Shown here in pieces: positions 45,295 to 56,183 of a stretch of DNA of 64,000 bases; the first letter of the stretch is position 1; each line of letters begins with the position of its first letter. The position numbers and the translations under genes were made by a program. Source of the DNA: Stagnihabitans lacustris (lineage in GTDB: Bacteria > Pseudomonadota > Alphaproteobacteria > Rhodobacterales > Rhodobacteraceae); contig NZ_JAPDGS010000001.1 in the NCBI RefSeq assembly GCF_025950525.1, positions 434,001 to 498,000 of the forward strand, read 5' to 3'. The notes beneath the pieces were generated by a model. That model was not told the origin of the DNA. It saw only the letters and a program-made list of their open reading frames with translations, and ran no database searches.

Positions 45295-45735
45295 ATGCGG
45301 CTGACATGTATGGACTGCGGCCAGGCCAACCGGGTGCCGGAGGATCGCATGACCCAGGCGCCGAAATGTGGCGTCTGCGGGGCGGGGCTGGTGACGGGCA
45401 AGGTGGGGGCGCTGGACATGGGCACCCATGACAAGCTGATCCGCGACGACATGCCCGTGGTCATCGACTATTGGGCGCCCTGGTGCGGGCCTTGCCGCCA
45501 GATGGCGCCGGAATTTGCCAAGGCGGCGGCGGCTGTGCCGGGCACCCGCTTTGCCAAGATCGACACGCAGGACCACCCGGCCGTCTCGGCCCGGCTGGGC
45601 ATCCGGGGCATCCCGCTGCTGATCCTGTGGCACAAGGGACGTGAGGTCGCCCGGCTGGCCGGCGCGCGTCCTGCGGCCGAGATCGCGGCCTTTGCAGGCT
45701 CAGTAACGGTCGGGTCGGTAAGGCCGGGTCAGTAA
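45295..45735 (+). CDS. trxC: Thioredoxin 2
   Basis: A 146-residue thioredoxin with the N-terminal zinc ribbon of Trx2 (C5, C8, C25, C28) and the redox site WAPWCGPC (C64, C67). Cis-proline is in RGIPLL. It reduces cytoplasmic disulfides and tends to be induced by oxidants. ATG 45295 follows AAGGAGG. Its end overlaps the convergent RpiR gene by 7 bp. The upstream AT-rich CATATATATC (45260-45270) is a likely -10 region. Confidence 0.95.
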   Translation: MRLTCMDCGQANRVPEDRMTQAPKCGVCGAGLVTGKVGALDMGTHDKLIRDDMPVVIDYWAPWCGPCRQMAPEFAKAAAAVPGTRFAKIDTQDHPAVSARLGIRGIPLLILWHKGREVARLAGARPAAEIAAFAGSVTVGSVRPGQ

Positions 45736-46562
45736 AGGTCCAGGCCACGTAGCAGCCCGGGCCAGGCCTCGATCCGCGCCCGCGTGGCCTCCGGCGCCTG
45801 CAGGGCCACGGCATGCAGGATCACATTCATCATGGTCGTCATCGGCCCGGTGCTTTCCAGGAAAGCATCCACCTTGGTCTGGACGTGAAAGACAAAGGGC
45901 GTCTCGGCGGCGGCCCAGGTGTTCAGCTCATCCGTGACCACCACCGCCGCCATCCCCAGGCTGCGGGCCAGGCGCAGGATCGGCAGGGCCTCACGCGCAT
46001 AGGGGGCCATGTCGACCATCACCAGGCAGGCGCCGGACTGCCGCGGCGGCAGCCATTCGACCAGGCCATCGTCATGGGGCGACAGGAATCGCACCGCGCC
46101 CCGCACGATGGCAAGCCTGCGGGCGAAGTCCTCGGCAATGCCGCGGATCGACTGAAAGCCCGTCACATGGACCTCTTGCGCCTCGGCAATCGCCTGGATC
46201 GCCCCCCCCCATGCGGGCTTTTCCACCTCGGCCGCGAGCGCCAGCACGGCTTCGGCGTCGCGTTTCAGCAGGCTGCCGATCTCGCCCTCGGGCAGGCGGA
46301 AATAGTGATCGGGCGAAACTTGCGCCAGATGGGCGCTTTGCAGCGCGTCCTTCAGCCCCGCCAGCCCCTTGAAGCCCGCGCGTTTCAGGAACCTACTGAC
46401 GGTGATTTCGCTGACCCCGGTCTTGGCCGCGACCGAAGCCCCGGTCTCATTGCCCAGACTTGCCACATTCAGCGCCAGCCATTGGGCAATCGCTGCCTCT
46501 GATTTGGTCAAACCGCCCGGGATCTGGCGCAATCTTTGGGCAAGCGGGGTCTCATCGGTCAT
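45729..46562 (-). CDS. MurR/RpiR-family transcriptional regulator
   Basis: A 277-residue regulator. The N-terminal HTH_6 domain is KSEAAIAQWLALNVASLGNETGASVAAKTGVSEITVSRFLKRAGF (about residues 18-62; key helix VSEITVSRFLK). The C-terminal SIS-like sugar-phosphate domain (HVTGFQSIRGIAEDFARRL, then MVDMAPYAREALPIL) binds the effector. The start at 46562 (MTDETPLAQRLRQ) is the one that fits; the open frame continues far upstream only as antisense of the next gene. It is divergent from the pot-type operon and probably controls it. The effector may not be a sugar, since RpiR proteins also govern amine and amino acid uptake. Confidence 0.9.
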   Translation of the reverse strand: MTDETPLAQRLRQIPGGLTKSEAAIAQWLALNVASLGNETGASVAAKTGVSEITVSRFLKRAGFKGLAGLKDALQSAHLAQVSPDHYFRLPEGEIGSLLKRDAEAVLALAAEVEKPAWGGAIQAIAEAQEVHVTGFQSIRGIAEDFARRLAIVRGAVRFLSPHDDGLVEWLPPRQSGACLVMVDMAPYAREALPILRLARSLGMAAVVVTDELNTWAAAETPFVFHVQTKVDAFLESTGPMTTMMNVILHAVALQAPEATRARIEAWPGLLRGLDLY

Positions 46563-46600
46563 GACAGCGTTTACAGCTTTATTTTTGAATGTTAGCCTTC

Positions 46601-46616
46601 TGTCATAACGATAACA
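46601..46616. promoter_or_regulatory. Candidate RpiR operator in the divergent promoter
   Basis: TGTCATAACGATAACA has near-perfect arms (TGTCAT / ATAACA, one mismatch) and lies centrally in the 99-bp gap between the regulator and the uptake operon, in its most AT-rich part. It could serve both promoters. Confidence 0.4.
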
Positions 46617-46661
46617 CGCCCGACCGGGCAGGCAAAGCCCCGCGGGTCCAACCGGGAGACG

Positions 46662-47687
46662 ATGATGAAGGTCTATGCTTTGGCCCTTGGCCTGATGGCG
46701 TCCGCGGCTTCGATCCAGGCTGCGGGGGCCGAGACCCTCGCGCTGTATAACTGGGGCGATTACATCAACCCCGAGATCCTGGCGGGTTTCACCGCCGAAA
46801 CCGGGATCGAAGTGACCCTGGACACCTATTCGTCGAACGAAGAGATGCTGGCCAAGATCCAGGCCGGGGCCACGGGCTATGACATCGTTTTCCCCTCGGT
46901 GCATATGAATGACATCATGCTGAAGCTGGGGCTGCTGGAAAAGACCGACATCAACCTTTCCCCCGGGTTTGCGGCAATCGACCCGGCCAACCTGCGGTCG
47001 AAAGAGGACCCGGACAGCGCCTATTGCCTGCCCTATGCCTGGGGCACGGTGGGGATCTTTTACAACGAAAAGGTCACGGGGCCGATCACCGGCTGGGCCG
47101 ATTACTTCGCTGCGGCCGAAAAGGGCGCCAAGGTCACGCTGTTGGACGACATGCGCGAGGTCGTGGCGGTGGGGCTGATCATGACCGGCAAATCGGTCAA
47201 CTCGACCGATCCGGCCGACCTGCAAGGCGCGGTGGATTACCTGCTGTCGCAAAAGTCCAAGGTCGCGGCCTTCACCTATGATTCCATGTCCATGCTGACC
47301 TCGGGCGACATCGGCGCCGCGCATTTCTTTGTCGGTGGCAATGTGTTCTTCACCCAGACGCCGGATGTGAAATACGTCATCCCGGTCGAGGGCGCGACGA
47401 TGTATCAGGAAAACATCTGCGTCCTGAAGACCGCGCCGAACAAGGCCGCGGCCAAGGCCTTCATGGAATTCTACCTGCGCCCCGAGATTGCCGCGCTGAA
47501 CGTGGCCCAGCAGTTCAACGGCACCGCCAATGTGCCCGCCCGCGATCTGGTGCCCGATTTCATCAAGCAGAACCCCACGATCAACGTCCCGGCCGAAACG
47601 CTGACCCGGTTGCAGATCTTCGAGGACCTTGGCGCGGGGCTGAAGCTTTATGACCGCGCCTGGAACACGATCCGGACCGCGCAATGA
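46662..47687 (+). CDS. Polyamine-type ABC transporter, substrate-binding protein (PotD/PotF-like)
   Basis: The 341-residue protein has a signal peptide ending near AGA (residue 23) and then the PotD/PotF fold ([18 protein letters not shown], with EENICVLK-like segments late). It binds the substrate in the periplasm and hands it to the permeases encoded downstream. Either ATG 46662 or 46665 can start it; GGGAGACG precedes both. Family ligands are putrescine, spermidine, or larger amines. Acidic residues usual in polyamine pockets are not obvious by eye, so a different amine or peptide-like ligand is possible. Its stop overlaps the ATPase gene (ATGA). Confidence 0.92.
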
Positions 47688-48715
47688 GCCTGCTTTCGGT
47701 CAGGGGCGCGCGGCGTGTGTTCCAGACCCCGGAGGGCGGCCGGCTGGCGGCCCTCGATGGGGTCGACCTGCAGGTCGGTGCGGAGGAATTCGTGACGCTG
47801 CTTGGCCCCTCGGGCTGCGGCAAGACCACGCTTTTGCGCGCGATTTCGGGCTTCGAGGCGCTGGATGAAGGCACGATCCACCTGCAGGGCGCGGACCTTT
47901 TGCGCCTGGCCCCCTATCGCCGTCCGGTCAACACGGTCTTTCAAAGCTATGCGCTCTTTGGCCATATGTCGGTGGCGCGCAACGTGGGTTATGCCTTGGA
48001 AGTCCGGGGGATGGGACGCGCCGCCCGCCAGGCCCGGGTGGATGAGGCGCTGGAGAAAGTGGGCCTCTCCGGCCTCGGCGCCCGCGCCATCGGTCAGTTG
48101 TCGGGCGGCCAAAGGCAGCGCGTGGCTTTGGCCCGGGCCATCGTGGCCGAACCGCGGCTTCTGCTCTTGGACGAGCCCCTGTCGGCCCTGGATCGCAACC
48201 TGCGCCAACAGATGCAACTGGAGCTGAAGGCGCTGCAGGCCCGGCTTGGCATCGCCTTTGTCTTCGTCACCCATGACCAGGAAGAGGCCCTGACCATGTC
48301 CGACCGCGTGGTGGTCATGCGCAAGGGCCGCATCGAACAGATCGGCCCCCCGCGTGAGATTTACCGCAAGCCCCGCACAAGGTTCGTGGCGGAATTCATC
48401 GGCGAAACCAACCTTTTCGACCTTGATGCGCAGGGCCGCACCCCAGAGGGACTCATCTTCGCCGTGCCCAATCCTCCGGCGGCGCGGTTCACCGCCTGCC
48501 TGCGGCCCTCGGATTTTCACCTGGCCGAACAGGGCATCGCGGGGGTCGTTACCAAGGTCGTCTATCTGGGTGCCGACCTGCATCTTTATGTGCAACCGAA
48601 AGTGGGAGGCCCCGAACTGCGTGTCACCGCCCGTGACCATGCCGCCGCCCCGGTCGTCGGCGCCGAGGTCCATTTGGGCCATGACCCCGAAGCCCTGCAC
48701 CTGTTGGAGGCGTGA
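47684..48715 (+). CDS. Polyamine-type ABC transporter, ATP-binding protein (PotA-like)
   Basis: A 343-residue ATPase: Walker [10 protein letters not shown], signature [16 protein letters not shown], Walker [17 protein letters not shown], switch VTHDQEEAL, and a TOBE-type regulatory C-terminus ([13 protein letters not shown] onward). It couples ATP hydrolysis to the permeases encoded next. It overlaps the binding-protein gene at its 5' end and abuts the first permease at its 3' end. Confidence 0.95.
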
Positions 48716-49587
48716 TGCGGCAAAGCACCTTCCTCGCGGCTCTGCTGGCCCCCGCCACACTGTTCCTGGGTGTCTTTTTCCTGGGGCCGCTTTTGATCAT
48801 CGCGGTCTTTTCGCTTTTGACGCCGGGGCTTTACGGCGGTGTCGAATGGAGCTTTTACCACCAGAACTACGGCCGCATCTTTGGCTGGGCCGATGGGATC
48901 ATGGAAATCTATGAGCCGGTCTATCTGCAAATCCTGCTGCGGTCGCTGGGCTTTGCCGCCCTGACTGTCGGTCTGTGTCTGGTGATCTGTTACCCCGTGG
49001 CCTTCTGGGTCGCGCGATTGCCGCCCCGTGCGCGGCTGTTCTGCCTGTTCCTCGTGACGCTGCCCTTCTTCTCCAGCCTGATCGTGCGGCTTTACGCCTG
49101 GCTCTTGATCCTGAAACCCTCGGGGCTGCTCAATCAGACGCTGTTGGCCACGGGCTTGATCCAGACCCCGCTGGAGATCCTTTACACCCAATCCGCCGTC
49201 GTTCTGGGGCTGGTCTATGTCATGGTCCCCTTCATGTTCCTGCCGCTTTACAGTGCCATCGACAACCTGGACCGGTCCATGGTCGAGGCCTCGATGGATC
49301 TGGGCGCGAACCGGGTGCAGACCTTCACCAAGGTCGTGCTGCCGCAGACCCTGCCGGGGATCATCGGGGGCGCGGTCATTGTCTTTATCCCCTCGGTCGG
49401 AAATTTCATCGTGCCGGATGTGCTGGGGGGCGCCAAGGGGCTGATGGTGGGCAATCTGGTCGAGCAACAGTTTCTGTCGGCGCGCAACTGGCCCTTTGGC
49501 GCGGCCTTGGCGATGATCGTCATGGGAGTCGTTCTGGCGACCCTGCTTTACGCCTCGGCCCGGGCGCGGAGTGCCGCCCATGCGTAG
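48715..49587 (+). CDS. Polyamine-type ABC permease (PotB-like)
   Basis: A 290-residue permease with six helices. The EAA loop is VEASMDLGANRVQTFTKVVL. I prefer ATG 48715 to the GTG three bases earlier because GGAGG ends at 48710, leaving 4 bases to the ATG but only one to the GTG. The stop overlaps the next permease by 8 bp. Confidence 0.94.
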   Translation: MRQSTFLAALLAPATLFLGVFFLGPLLIIAVFSLLTPGLYGGVEWSFYHQNYGRIFGWADGIMEIYEPVYLQILLRSLGFAALTVGLCLVICYPVAFWVARLPPRARLFCLFLVTLPFFSSLIVRLYAWLLILKPSGLLNQTLLATGLIQTPLEILYTQSAVVLGLVYVMVPFMFLPLYSAIDNLDRSMVEASMDLGANRVQTFTKVVLPQTLPGIIGGAVIVFIPSVGNFIVPDVLGGAKGLMVGNLVEQQFLSARNWPFGAALAMIVMGVVLATLLYASARARSAAHA

Positions 49588-50398
49588 CCTTCTGACGCTG
49601 TGGTCCCTGGCCTTTTTCGCCTTTATCTATGCGCCCTTGGCGGTGATCGTCGCCTATTCCTTCAATGCCAACCCGGTCAACATGATGATCTGGGACGGGT
49701 TCACGTTGGACTGGTATCGCGGGCTGTTCGGGGCCGCGGTCGAACGGCCCGCCAGCGACGCGCTGTATATCGAGAATACCGACCAACTGCTGGCCGCGCT
49801 GCGCACCTCTTTGACCGTGGCGTTTTTCACCACGACCATTGCCACGGTGCTGGGGACCTCGCTGGCCATCGCGCTGGGGCGGGGGCGCTTTGTCGGCCAA
49901 AAGGCGCTGGGCGGCTTTCTTCTCTTGCCGATGATGATGCCCGATATCGTGCTGGGCATCGGCCTTTTGATCTTTTTCCTGACGCTGGGGATGCAGCTTT
50001 CGCTTCTGACCATCATCATCGGGCATTGCACCTTTTTGATCTCATATGTCTTCGTGATCGTGCAGGCGCGGTTGGCGGGGCTGGACCCGGCGCTGGAGGA
50101 AGCCTCGGCCGATCTGGGCGCCTCGCCCTTCGTCACCCTGCGCAAGGTCCTGATCCCGCAACTGGCGCCCGGCATCCTGGGCGGGGCGCTTTTGGCCTTT
50201 GTCATCTCGATGGATGACCTGGTCATCACCTATTTCATCGCGGGCACCGACAACACGACCTTGCCCGTCTTCATCTTCGGCATGATCCGTCGCGGCGTAA
50301 AGCCCGAGATCAACGCCATCGCCACGCTGATCATCTTGTCCTCGGTGGTGATCGCGGGGCTTGGCCTGTGGCTGCGCGCCAGAAAGACCCCAGCATGA
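49580..50398 (+). CDS. Polyamine-type ABC permease (PotC-like)
   Basis: The second permease, 272 residues, six helices, EAA loop EEASADLGASPFVTLRKVLI. It keeps the PotC-style IFGMIRRGVKPEINAIATLI close to the end. The start at ATG 49580 is inside the previous gene and its TGA overlaps the ATG of the peptidase gene, so the whole operon is translationally chained. Confidence 0.94.
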   Translation: MRSLLTLWSLAFFAFIYAPLAVIVAYSFNANPVNMMIWDGFTLDWYRGLFGAAVERPASDALYIENTDQLLAALRTSLTVAFFTTTIATVLGTSLAIALGRGRFVGQKALGGFLLLPMMMPDIVLGIGLLIFFLTLGMQLSLLTIIIGHCTFLISYVFVIVQARLAGLDPALEEASADLGASPFVTLRKVLIPQLAPGILGGALLAFVISMDDLVITYFIAGTDNTTLPVFIFGMIRRGVKPEINAIATLIILSSVVIAGLGLWLRARKTPA

Positions 50399-51468
50399 AA
50401 CCTCGCGCCAAGAAACTTAGGGCCCGCGACCTCGGCCTGCCCTTCAAGGGGCAGACCGGCCCGCTGAACGCCATCACCGATATCGCGGGGCTGACGGTGG
50501 GGTTTTGCACCCTGACCGATCCCGCGCGGGGCTTGCGGACCGGGGTCACGGCCATCCTGCCGCGCCCGGGGAGCGATCCTCAGCCGGTCTGGGCCGGCCA
50601 CTATGCGCTGAACGGCAACGGAGAGATGACCGGCACGCATTGGATCAACGACGCGGGCTATTTCATCGGGCCGGTGCTGATCACCAACACCCATGGGGTG
50701 GGCGCGGCGCATCTGGGGGCGACCGAATGGATGATCGGCCACTATGCTGACTATTTTGCGAAGGAACATGCCTGGGCCATGCCCGTCGTGGCCGAGACCT
50801 ATGACGGGGTGCTGAACGATATCAACGCGCTCTCGGTGCGCCCCGAACATGCGTTGGCCGCCTTGGCCGACCTGAAGCCCGGCCCGGTGGCCGAGGGCTC
50901 GACCGGCGGGGGCAACGGGATGATCGCCTATGAGTTCAAGGGCGGCACCGGGACCTCGTCTCGCCGCGTGGCCTTGGGGGGGCAGGATTACACGGTGGCG
51001 GCCTTGGTGCAGGCCAATCACGGCATCCGCCCCTGGCTTTCTGTTCTGGGCCGCCCGGTGGGCGAGCTGATGCCGGAAGGGTCGTTTTACGCCAAGGAAA
51101 GCGGGTCGATCATCGTGATCCTGGCCACCGATGCGCCGCTTTCGGGGCTGGCTTTGCGCCAGCTGGCCAAGCGGGCGGCCTTGGGGGTCGGGCGGGGCGG
51201 CACACCGGGGGGGAACAATTCGGGCGATATCTTCCTGGCGCTGTCCACCGCCAATCCCGGCCCCATGCCGCAATTCGCGCCTGCCTTGGCGCTGCGGCCC
51301 GAGCTGAACATCGAACTGCTGGACGACCTTTACCTGGGCGCCGTGCGGTCCGTCGAAGAGGCGGTGATCAACGCCCTGGTGGCGGGCGAGGACGTGGCGA
51401 CCTTCAAGCCCCCGGGCCATATCTGCCGCGCCATCGACACCGGGCGGCTTCAGGCGCTTTTTGCCTGA
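50395..51468 (+). CDS. DmpA/BapA-type beta-aminopeptidase (peptidase family S58)
   Basis: A 357-residue Ntn-type hydrolase. The family autocleaves before a serine that becomes the nucleophile; here it is S276 in the GGNNSGDIF motif. Other landmarks are DIAGLTVGFCTL, NGNGEMTGTHWI, ITNTHGVGAAHLGATEWM and AEGSTGGGNGM. Known relatives remove N-terminal beta-amino acids or D-residues from short peptides. There is no signal peptide, so it acts after uptake. It is the last gene of the pot-type operon, its ATG overlapping the permease stop. This suggests the transporter's cargo carries an amide or peptide bond it cleaves, for example a beta-alanyl or acylated amine. Confidence 0.92.
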   Translation: MKPRAKKLRARDLGLPFKGQTGPLNAITDIAGLTVGFCTLTDPARGLRTGVTAILPRPGSDPQPVWAGHYALNGNGEMTGTHWINDAGYFIGPVLITNTHGVGAAHLGATEWMIGHYADYFAKEHAWAMPVVAETYDGVLNDINALSVRPEHALAALADLKPGPVAEGSTGGGNGMIAYEFKGGTGTSSRRVALGGQDYTVAALVQANHGIRPWLSVLGRPVGELMPEGSFYAKESGSIIVILATDAPLSGLALRQLAKRAALGVGRGGTPGGNNSGDIFLALSTANPGPMPQFAPALALRPELNIELLDDLYLGAVRSVEEAVINALVAGEDVATFKPPGHICRAIDTGRLQALFA

Positions 51469-54706: not shown

Positions 54707-54764
54707 CTGGAGGAGGCTCTGCCCCCTCCAGACCTCCCCCGGAATATTTGAGCCAATGTGAAAG
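54707..54764 (+). repeat. Dispersed intergenic element, copy I
   Basis: Stem CTGGAGG (54707-54713) / CCTCCAG (54725-54731), then CTCCCCCGGAATATTTGAGC and CAATGTGAAAG (to 54764). It lies just after the unknown membrane protein gene and its tail merges into the 18-bp array. Confidence 0.8.
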
Positions 54765-54842
54765 AGGCGGGCGCGCGCAAAGAGGCGGGCGCGCGCAAAG
54801 AGGCGGGCGCGCGCAAAGAGGCGGGCGCGCGCAAAGAGGCGG
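54761..54842 (+). repeat. 18-bp tandem array (four units plus a partial fifth)
   Basis: AAAGAGGCGGGCGCGCGC is repeated exactly at 54761, 54779, 54797 and 54815, with a truncated fifth unit from 54833. The first unit begins inside the tail of element copy I. The array ends 6 bp before the metZ -35 box. Confidence 0.95.
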
Positions 54843-54847
54843 GGCGC

Positions 54848-54876
54848 TTGACCCTTGGCGGGGGGGCTGGTAATCC
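54848..54876 (+). promoter_or_regulatory. metZ promoter
   Basis: TTGACC (54848-54853) and TAATCC (54871-54876) are separated by 17 bp, a good sigma70-type pair. They place the transcript start near 54883, which is precisely where the SAM-II aptamer begins. Confidence 0.75.
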
Positions 54877-54880
54877 CTGT

Positions 54881-54933
54881 CCGTGGCGCTTTGAACCGGA
54901 TTGCGGGCCACGTTAAACATTCCGCTAAAAGGT
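54881..54933 (+). ncRNA. SAM-II riboswitch
   Basis: The sequence fits the SAM-II (metA) aptamer of alphaproteobacteria. P1 is CGTGGC (54882-54887) with GCCACG (54907-54912). The loop carries GCTTTGAACCGGATTGC, and the 3' strand has the hallmarks CACGTTAAACA and CCGCTAAAAGG that form the pseudoknot. Excess S-adenosylmethionine binding should reduce metZ expression. Downstream stems GGGGC/GCCCC (54934-54948) and CCGGG/CCCGG (54954-54966) may belong to the expression platform before the AAGGAGGA ribosome site (54993-55000). Confidence 0.92.
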
Positions 54934-55004
54934 GGGGCTGATGGCCCCTCTCTCCGGGCAACCCGGGTCCCCGTTGCAAGACGGCGGCCCATAAGGAGGA
55001 CCGG

Positions 55005-56183
55005 ATGAGCGAGTGGAACATCCGCACGAAACTGGTGCATGAAGGCAGCCGTCGCAGCCAATATGGCGAGATGGCCGAGGCGCTGTATCTGACGCAGGGC
55101 TTTGCCTATCCCGACGCCGAGTCGGCCGAACAGCGGTTCATCAAGGCGGGCGATGACGAGTTCATCTATGCCCGCTATGGCAACCCCACGACCCGCATGT
55201 TCGAAGAGCGCATCGCGGCGCTGGAGGGGACCGAGGACGCCTTTGCCACCGCGTCGGGGATGGCGGCGGTCAATGGCGCCTTGGTGTCCATGCTGCGGGC
55301 GGGGGATCATGTGGTGTCCTCGCGGGCGCTGTTCGGGTCCTGTCTGTATATCCTGGAAGAGGTCCTGACGCGCTATGGCGTCAAAGTGACGTTCGTCGAT
55401 GGGGCGGATCTGGATCAATGGCGGGCGGCGGTCGTGCCGGGGGTCAAGGCGGTCTTTTTCGAGTCGATGTCGAATCCGACTTTGGAGCTGGTGGATATTG
55501 CTGCGGTGTCACAGATTGCCCATGCGGTCGGCGCCTTGGTCATCGTGGACAATGTCTTTGCCACGCCGATCTTTTCGCGGGCGGTGGAACAGGGCGCCGA
55601 TGTGGTGATCTATTCCTCGACCAAGCATATCGACGGGCAGGGCAAGGCCCTGGGCGGGGTGATCTGCGGCACGAAGGATTTCGTGCGCAAGGTGGCGGAA
55701 CCCTATCTGAAACACACCGGGGCGGCGATTTCGCCGTTTAACGCCTGGCTGCATCTGCAAGGCATGGTGACGCTGGACCTGCGCTGTCGGGCCATGGCCG
55801 ATGCCGCCTTGCGGGTGGCCACGGCTTTGGAGGCCGAGGCCAAGGTGACGCGGGTGATCTATCCGGGGCTCGCCAGCCATCCGCAGCATGATCTGGCCAT
55901 GGCGCAGATGGGGACGGGGGGCACTTTGGTGACCTTTGAAGTCGCAGGCGGCAAGGAAGGCGCCTTCCGCTTCATGAACGCGCTGGAAATCGCCAAGATT
56001 TCCAACAACCTGGGCGATGCCAAGTCGATCGCCACCCATCCGGCGACCACGACCCACCAGCGTTTGCCGCAGGATCAGAAGGACAAGCTGGGCATCACGC
56101 CGGGCCTGATCCGGTTCTCGGTCGGGCTGGAGGATGCGGGCGACCTGATCGCCGATCTGCGGCGCGGTCTGGCTGCGATCTGA
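55005..56183 (+). CDS. metZ: O-succinylhomoserine sulfhydrylase
   Basis: MetZ makes homocysteine from an activated homoserine and sulfide in methionine synthesis. It is a 392-residue Cys/Met-metabolism PLP enzyme. K207 in IYSSTKHIDGQGKALGG holds PLP, with RYGNPTTRMFEERIAALEG and ATASGMAAV binding the phosphate. The GQGKALGGVICG form after the lysine favours MetZ over cystathionine enzymes; O-acetylhomoserine use cannot be excluded. The start has AAGGAGGA five bases upstream. The SAM-II switch just upstream corroborates the methionine role. Confidence 0.95.
   Translation: MSEWNIRTKLVHEGSRRSQYGEMAEALYLTQGFAYPDAESAEQRFIKAGDDEFIYARYGNPTTRMFEERIAALEGTEDAFATASGMAAVNGALVSMLRAGDHVVSSRALFGSCLYILEEVLTRYGVKVTFVDGADLDQWRAAVVPGVKAVFFESMSNPTLELVDIAAVSQIAHAVGALVIVDNVFATPIFSRAVEQGADVVIYSSTKHIDGQGKALGGVICGTKDFVRKVAEPYLKHTGAAISPFNAWLHLQGMVTLDLRCRAMADAALRVATALEAEAKVTRVIYPGLASHPQHDLAMAQMGTGGTLVTFEVAGGKEGAFRFMNALEIAKISNNLGDAKSIATHPATTTHQRLPQDQKDKLGITPGLIRFSVGLEDAGDLIADLRRGLAAI

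Follow-up and report, generated by a model that had tools for sequence, protein, structure and literature searches.

The described systems closest to the locus analysed here are the four-subunit polyamine importers PotABCD and PotFGHI of E. coli, the DmpA enzyme of O. anthropi (PDB 1b65; peptidase family S58) with the related BapA beta-aminopeptidases, which were characterised as isolated enzymes, and operons that join a dipeptide importer to a D-aminopeptidase, such as the Bacillus dpp operon. Enzymes of the DmpA/BapA type serve biocatalysis in the synthesis of carnosine and beta-peptides, the amide cut by DmpA-family enzymes must adjoin a free amino group, and to our knowledge the natural substrates of DmpA and BapA are uncertain. 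The locus lies in a stretch of 64,000 nt from Stagnihabitans lacustris (the window, at its full length) and consists of a divergent RpiR gene on the reverse strand and the forward genes potF-potA-potB-potC-dmpA, together spanning 45729-51468. It resembles the E. coli importers in its four-subunit type, in the predicted fold of its binding protein (template modelling [TM] score ~0.82-0.87) and in a sequence identity of 31-33%, and differs from them in the replaced spermidine/putrescine pocket residues, the dmpA end, the adjoining RpiR gene and scores under the equivalog cut-offs. With the Dpp operons it shares an importer and a cytoplasmic peptidase in one unit, and an RpiR gene also stands beside most Dpp-dmpA loci; unlike the cassette with its Pot-type importer, however, the Dpp systems use an unrelated binding protein (SBP_bac_5) and two ATPase domains. 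Units of importer plus peptidase are thus a known kind, the position of the Dpp-type importer being taken here by one of Pot type. The best explanation, at a probability of about two in three, is a dedicated uptake-and-cleavage cassette in which the specificity of a PotD-type importer would have shifted to a small aminoacyl amide, or to an amine resembling a peptide, for cleavage by DmpA in the cytoplasm. This explanation builds on the observed gene content, gene overlaps, linkage, DmpA active site and binding pocket, and on a predicted fold. The features of the locus are as follows.

45729-46562, reverse strand: MurR/RpiR-family regulator (HTH_6 and SIS domains), divergent, adjoining the cassette in almost every relative
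46563-46664: divergent intergenic region, common to both transcription directions
46570-46598, forward strand: promoter-like block TTTACA-N17-TAGCCT, kept in most of ten relatives; putative promoter
46601-46616, at the expected transcription start: candidate operator TGTCAT-AACG-ATAACA (TGTCATAACGATAACA), possibly bound by RpiR
46665-47687, forward strand: potF, solute-binding protein of PotD/PotF fold with an N-terminal signal sequence and a non-polyamine pocket (WGDYSHDEFYENF)
47684-48715, forward strand: potA, PotA-like ATP-binding cassette (ABC) ATPase with a TOBE_2 domain
48715-49587, forward strand: potB, PotB-like permease
49580-50398, forward strand: potC, PotC-like permease
50395-51468, forward strand: dmpA, DmpA-type peptidase of family S58, no signal peptide seen
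51103-51108, forward strand: codons for Gly237-Ser238, where self-cleavage is predicted and the nucleophile lies; the counterpart in O. anthropi DmpA is Gly249-Ser250

A preliminary description had treated 46601-51468 as the unit, so that the regulator gene fell just outside that interval, and its account of the gene content (a PotFABC-like importer, DmpA and RpiR) and of overlapping junctions is correct on both counts. All four forward junctions overlap, by 1-8 bp: 4 bp at F/A (ATGA), 1-4 bp at A/B, 8 bp at B/C and 4 bp at C/dmpA (ATGA), with alternative starts for potF (ATG, 46662) and potB (GTG, 48712). The proteins fall into the domain families HTH_6 plus SIS (RpiR), SBP_bac_8, ABC_tran plus TOBE_2, BPD_transp_1 (twice) and Peptidase_S58, and the importer combines a PotD-fold binding protein with ABC subunits of PotA, PotB and PotC type. 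In the regulator, HTH_6 exceeds the Pfam cut-off and SIS lies slightly under it (24.1 vs 25). Model scores are 346 bits for PotA, 255 bits for PotB, 222 bits for PotC and 329 bits for Peptidase_S58, and the binding protein scores higher with PotD (175 bits) than with PotF (153 bits). Every Pot score falls short of the curated NCBI equivalog cut-offs of the PotA/B/C/D/F models, and 'PotFABC-like' is therefore the right wording.

In a forward search, dmpA loci were gathered at the level of the family and of the class as well as from plasmids, and their neighbours were identified. Genes for dmpA and for potF, potB and potC of the window type occur together in 28 non-redundant loci besides the window, for which reason the unit exceeds a chance grouping. 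These loci belong to Rhodobacterales (including Defluviimonas, Tabrizicola and Thioclava), to Rhizobiaceae/Phyllobacteriaceae (Ensifer, Sinorhizobium, Shinella, Aminobacter and Pseudorhizobium) and to other alphaproteobacterial families, and include one Pseudomonas aeruginosa plasmid; excluded from the count were L095, with ordinary-type Pot genes near dmpA, and L133 (A. fabrum), with distant Pot genes and three genes between. With R for the regulator and D for dmpA, four gene orders occur (R<F-A-B-C-D>; R<F< then A-B-C-D>; A-B-C-D-F; <F-C-B-A then D>), so the partnership of importer and dmpA survives rearrangement; in the partial locus L197 dmpA lies between potC and potF, as in L144. Distances among the DmpA proteins are correlated with those among PotF, PotB and PotC (Mantel r ~0.93, 0/999 permutations). 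The reverse search used the binding protein alone as query. Among plasmid records matching it at E < 1e-60, dmpA lies ~3 kb away in 32/32, and in 346 Rhodobacteraceae genomes, 14 of which hold the binding protein at E < 1e-95, dmpA stands beside it in 13. The fourteenth genome (G282) carries a transposase-like open reading frame between an aminotransferase gene and potA, the place of dmpA in the sister loci L099 and L141. The linkage of importer and dmpA is old and selected, and the cassette is real, conserved and functionally coupled. That the peptidase belongs integrally to the uptake system, as had been proposed, is borne out by this linkage in both directions and through all four gene orders; the check suggested with that proposal, a search for the same genes elsewhere, yielded the 28 further loci, and the outcome named as contrary to it, a linkage that is not conserved, did not occur.

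Two variant loci were also encountered. On a Leisingera plasmid (L135:6884-10059), RpiR, binding-protein and dmpA genes follow each other with no importer subunits between and with insertion sequence elements nearby, the binding protein being of a different subgroup from that of the cassette. In Tabrizicola sp. SY72 (L025:10093-13426), genes for a flavin amine oxidase, a carbon-nitrogen hydrolase and an HpaI-type aldolase adjoin the cassette.

PotD contacts spermidine through E36, D168, E171 and D257 together with W34, Y37, W229 and W255 (PMC11414716), and the pocket residues of PotF and their conservation have been described as well (PMC8666671). The pocket was compared at 13 positions in PotD numbering, which read WTEYSYDEWWDYQ in PotD, WSDYSSAEWFDYL in PotF and WGDYSHDEFYENF in the window. 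The pattern WG[DE]YSHDE[FY]YENF fits 30 of the 31 linked binding proteins, the remaining one having Trp instead of His. W34, Y37, S83, D168 and E171 are kept in the 31 linked proteins and the E36 site holds D or E, and the spermidine contacts replaced are T35G, Y85H (30/31), W229F/Y, W255Y, D257E, Y293N and Q327F. Three of the four PotD acids are retained, with glutamate in place of D257, so that most amine-binding acids remain, the alterations affecting the aromatic clamp, a single acid and the distal end of the pocket. The aromatic box, D257/D278 and Y293, as conserved polyamine contacts, are replaced in 31/31 linked proteins; in a set of six paralogues (L190-L192 from the same genome, L052, L095 and L135) D257 and Y293 are kept in 6/6 and W229 in 5/6. 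A change this close to invariant would be expected if the cargo were conserved but not the usual one, and the binding protein, judged by these residues, is not a standard polyamine receptor. Its predicted fold has a mean pLDDT (predicted local distance difference test) of 87.8, and its nearest structures by both sequence and fold are PotD and PotF. The suggestion that this is no ordinary polyamine importer thus agrees with a pocket that is systematically altered in the linked proteins. The change of Lys223 in the PotC scoop loop to Arg was considered as a specific mark of the cassette and dropped, because E. coli PotI and paralogues without the linkage have it too.

The DmpA of the window matches O. 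anthropi DmpA with 399 bits over the length of the protein. Alongside the Peptidase_S58 domain it holds the self-cleavage Gly-Ser pair with the nucleophile (G249 and S250 in 1b65 numbering) and E144, Y146, N218, S288 and D290, all of which are kept in 28/28 Pot-linked copies. The enzyme is catalytically intact as far as its residues go, with a predicted aminopeptidase/amidase function, and a cytoplasmic location is expected because it has no signal sequence. In a tree of 96 DmpA proteins, Pot-linked and Dpp-linked members are intermixed, and the O. anthropi enzyme clusters with copies from Aminobacter, Shinella and Ensifer, all Pot-linked (SH-aLRT [Shimodaira-Hasegawa-like approximate likelihood ratio test] 96). 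By this tree the type enzyme falls in the Pot-linked clade; the DmpA proteins of Ensifer, Shinella and Sinorhizobium are 77-81% identical to it and stand in the same Pot arrangement. A second dmpA in the same genome, 71% identical (G000:C11:750924-751979; L029:7922-8989), adjoins a divergent gene for a PuuD-like class C26 hydrolase and a convergent one for a class V aminotransferase (BhcA-like), a neighbourhood kept across most of the genus. The residue beside Ser288 is Asn in 27/28 Pot-linked copies vs Ser in 12/13 PuuD-like-linked copies, a difference that may mark distinct specificities of the dmpA groups.

Pairing of dmpA with an importer is not confined to the Pot type. Eight loci (L030, L031, L101-L103, L137, L140 and L198) carry dmpA together with RpiR, DppA/B/C and an ATPase in which DppD and DppF are fused (DppDF), and a further Dpp-linked locus, L033, ends before any RpiR. 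Since dmpA is joined to Dpp importers as well, mostly with RpiR, the partnership of importer, RpiR and DmpA exists with two importer types, and its repeated occurrence therefore supports a role of DmpA in splitting an imported amide. The Dpp-dmpA loci show several gene orders, and L140 additionally carries C45 and M42 peptidases. The same loci speak for another explanation: the importer would take in common short peptides or peptides of D-amino acids, such as those shed by cell walls, and DmpA would be an aminopeptidase of broad scavenging function, comparable to the role reportedly played by DppA next to a dipeptide importer in Bacillus. This explanation is unlikely, if still to be reckoned with: the ligands of polyamine proteins with the PotD fold are small linear amines, three of the amine-site acids are kept with the fourth (D257) now glutamate, and a pocket so nearly invariant points to a single, specific cargo more than to the scavenging of many peptides.

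A second alternative holds that the importer still carries polyamines and that DmpA acts on other compounds, co-transcription reflecting common nitrogen regulation. It draws on PotD and PotF being the closest structures, and on the glutamine-synthetase-like gene, with remote similarity to gamma-glutamylputrescine synthetase, that two related cassettes and G282 carry. It accounts poorly, however, for the replacement of W229, W255, D257, Y293 and Q327 in every linked binding protein and for a linkage kept through four gene orders and on 32/32 plasmids, and the same genome holds other PotD/F-like proteins with the usual D257/Y293; we regard it as quite improbable. Very improbable is a third alternative, uptake mainly of a single vitamin-like or signalling amide that DmpA activates or detoxifies instead of feeding it into catabolism. 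In its favour, dmpA follows thiBPQ-like genes in L053, so DmpA can join importers of non-nutrient compounds; against it, this is a single case, and near the Pot cassettes nothing points directly to genes for signalling or detoxification. In that locus (L053:8067-12386, G049) dmpA lies directly downstream of the thiB-thiP-thiQ-like thiamine importer genes.

For a dedicated uptake-and-cleavage cassette, the following course is proposed, of which the chemical class of the cargo, the order of events and the action of RpiR are the inferred parts. A periplasmic PotD-fold protein no longer tuned to free polyamines would capture a small amide of cationic character, either an aminoacyl amine or a cationic peptide of very few residues, which PotA, PotB and PotC would import. 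DmpA, after predicted self-cleavage at Gly237-Ser238, would hydrolyse the amide in the cytoplasm from its free-amino end, so that a small amino acid of the alpha, beta or D kind is released together with an amine or amino acid. The divergent RpiR would probably keep the operon repressed as long as neither cargo nor product occupies its SIS domain. The need of DmpA for a free amino group and the retained acids of the binding protein are both satisfied by an aminoacyl amine or a very short peptide with positive charge.

As to the cargo, the preliminary description had named an amide-bearing amine or small beta-peptide. An amide-bearing amine or small peptide would fit the retained acids, the intact DmpA and the pairing with Dpp importers; the beta part is only hinted at by neighbours in a few loci. 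In three related Pot clusters (L099, L141 and L196, the last without dmpA), a homologue of N-acetyl-(R)-beta-phenylalanine acylase (441 bits) is accompanied by genes for an omega-aminotransferase and a glutamine-synthetase-like protein. In L146 and L145, a non-Pot dmpA adjoins a homologue of beta-alanine-pyruvate transaminase, which scores 646 bits to 4uhm. A beta-amino cargo, for example a beta-alanyl one, is the favoured version, held tentatively and at somewhat less than even odds. The acylase-like gene corresponds to the large subunit of N-acetyl-beta-phenylalanine acylase/dimethylformamidase-like enzymes, and a 108-aa protein of no known family is encoded in the L141 and L196 clusters.

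The shared promoter, a putative target of RpiR, was examined in an alignment of ten close loci, the window row included. Their consensus is a TTTACA-N17-TAGCgT block followed by TCTGTCAT, with L051 deviating in the -35-like part. Of the RpiR site claimed earlier in this region, the 16-mer at 46601-46616 is present and its left half TCTGTCAT is invariant, but the right half, ATAACA, is kept in only about half of the loci. A repressor acting at the transcription start can fairly be inferred from this arrangement. As an exceptional palindrome the 16-mer was rejected, because it has 10/16 matches and ~4% of all window 16-mers score equal or higher.

Several observations weigh against a dedicated uptake-and-cleavage cassette. 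The beta-amino hints come from few loci, one kind of them non-Pot-linked and the window not among them; the Asp-to-Glu and Trp-to-Tyr changes of the pocket could still permit free-amine binding; the operator half-site is only partially conserved; no catabolic genes adjoin the unit within the 64-kb window; and the genes flanking the cassette differ among relatives.

In the literature searched, mostly without subscription papers, there was neither a prior description of a cassette of Pot-type importer and DmpA nor any importer context for DmpA/BapA or for S58 peptidases with an ABC transporter. It is conceivable, at slightly under an even chance, that the Pot importer family has been retuned for an aminoacyl (probably beta-alanyl) amine, that the DmpA type enzyme naturally works within this cassette and that the cassette serves an undescribed imported-amide route. 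With close relatives of the type enzyme tied to a specific importer with a conserved and distinctive pocket, the substrate question of DmpA could become a simple binding screen. Among genes annotated as 'spermidine/putrescine ABC transporter' there is a subgroup that can be recognised and probably has a cargo other than polyamines; the 13-residue pocket signature with an adjacent S58 peptidase can serve to correct such annotations.

Beyond the cassette, the window holds beta-glucosidase-like and thioredoxin-like genes on one side and an FtsY-like gene on the other. Further along, a SAM_alpha (SAM-II type) riboswitch at 54873-54948 lies upstream of a homoserine sulfhydrylase-like gene (55005-56183), and an 18-bp tandem repeat (54761-54847; 4.9 copies, 98% matches) is located just upstream of the riboswitch.

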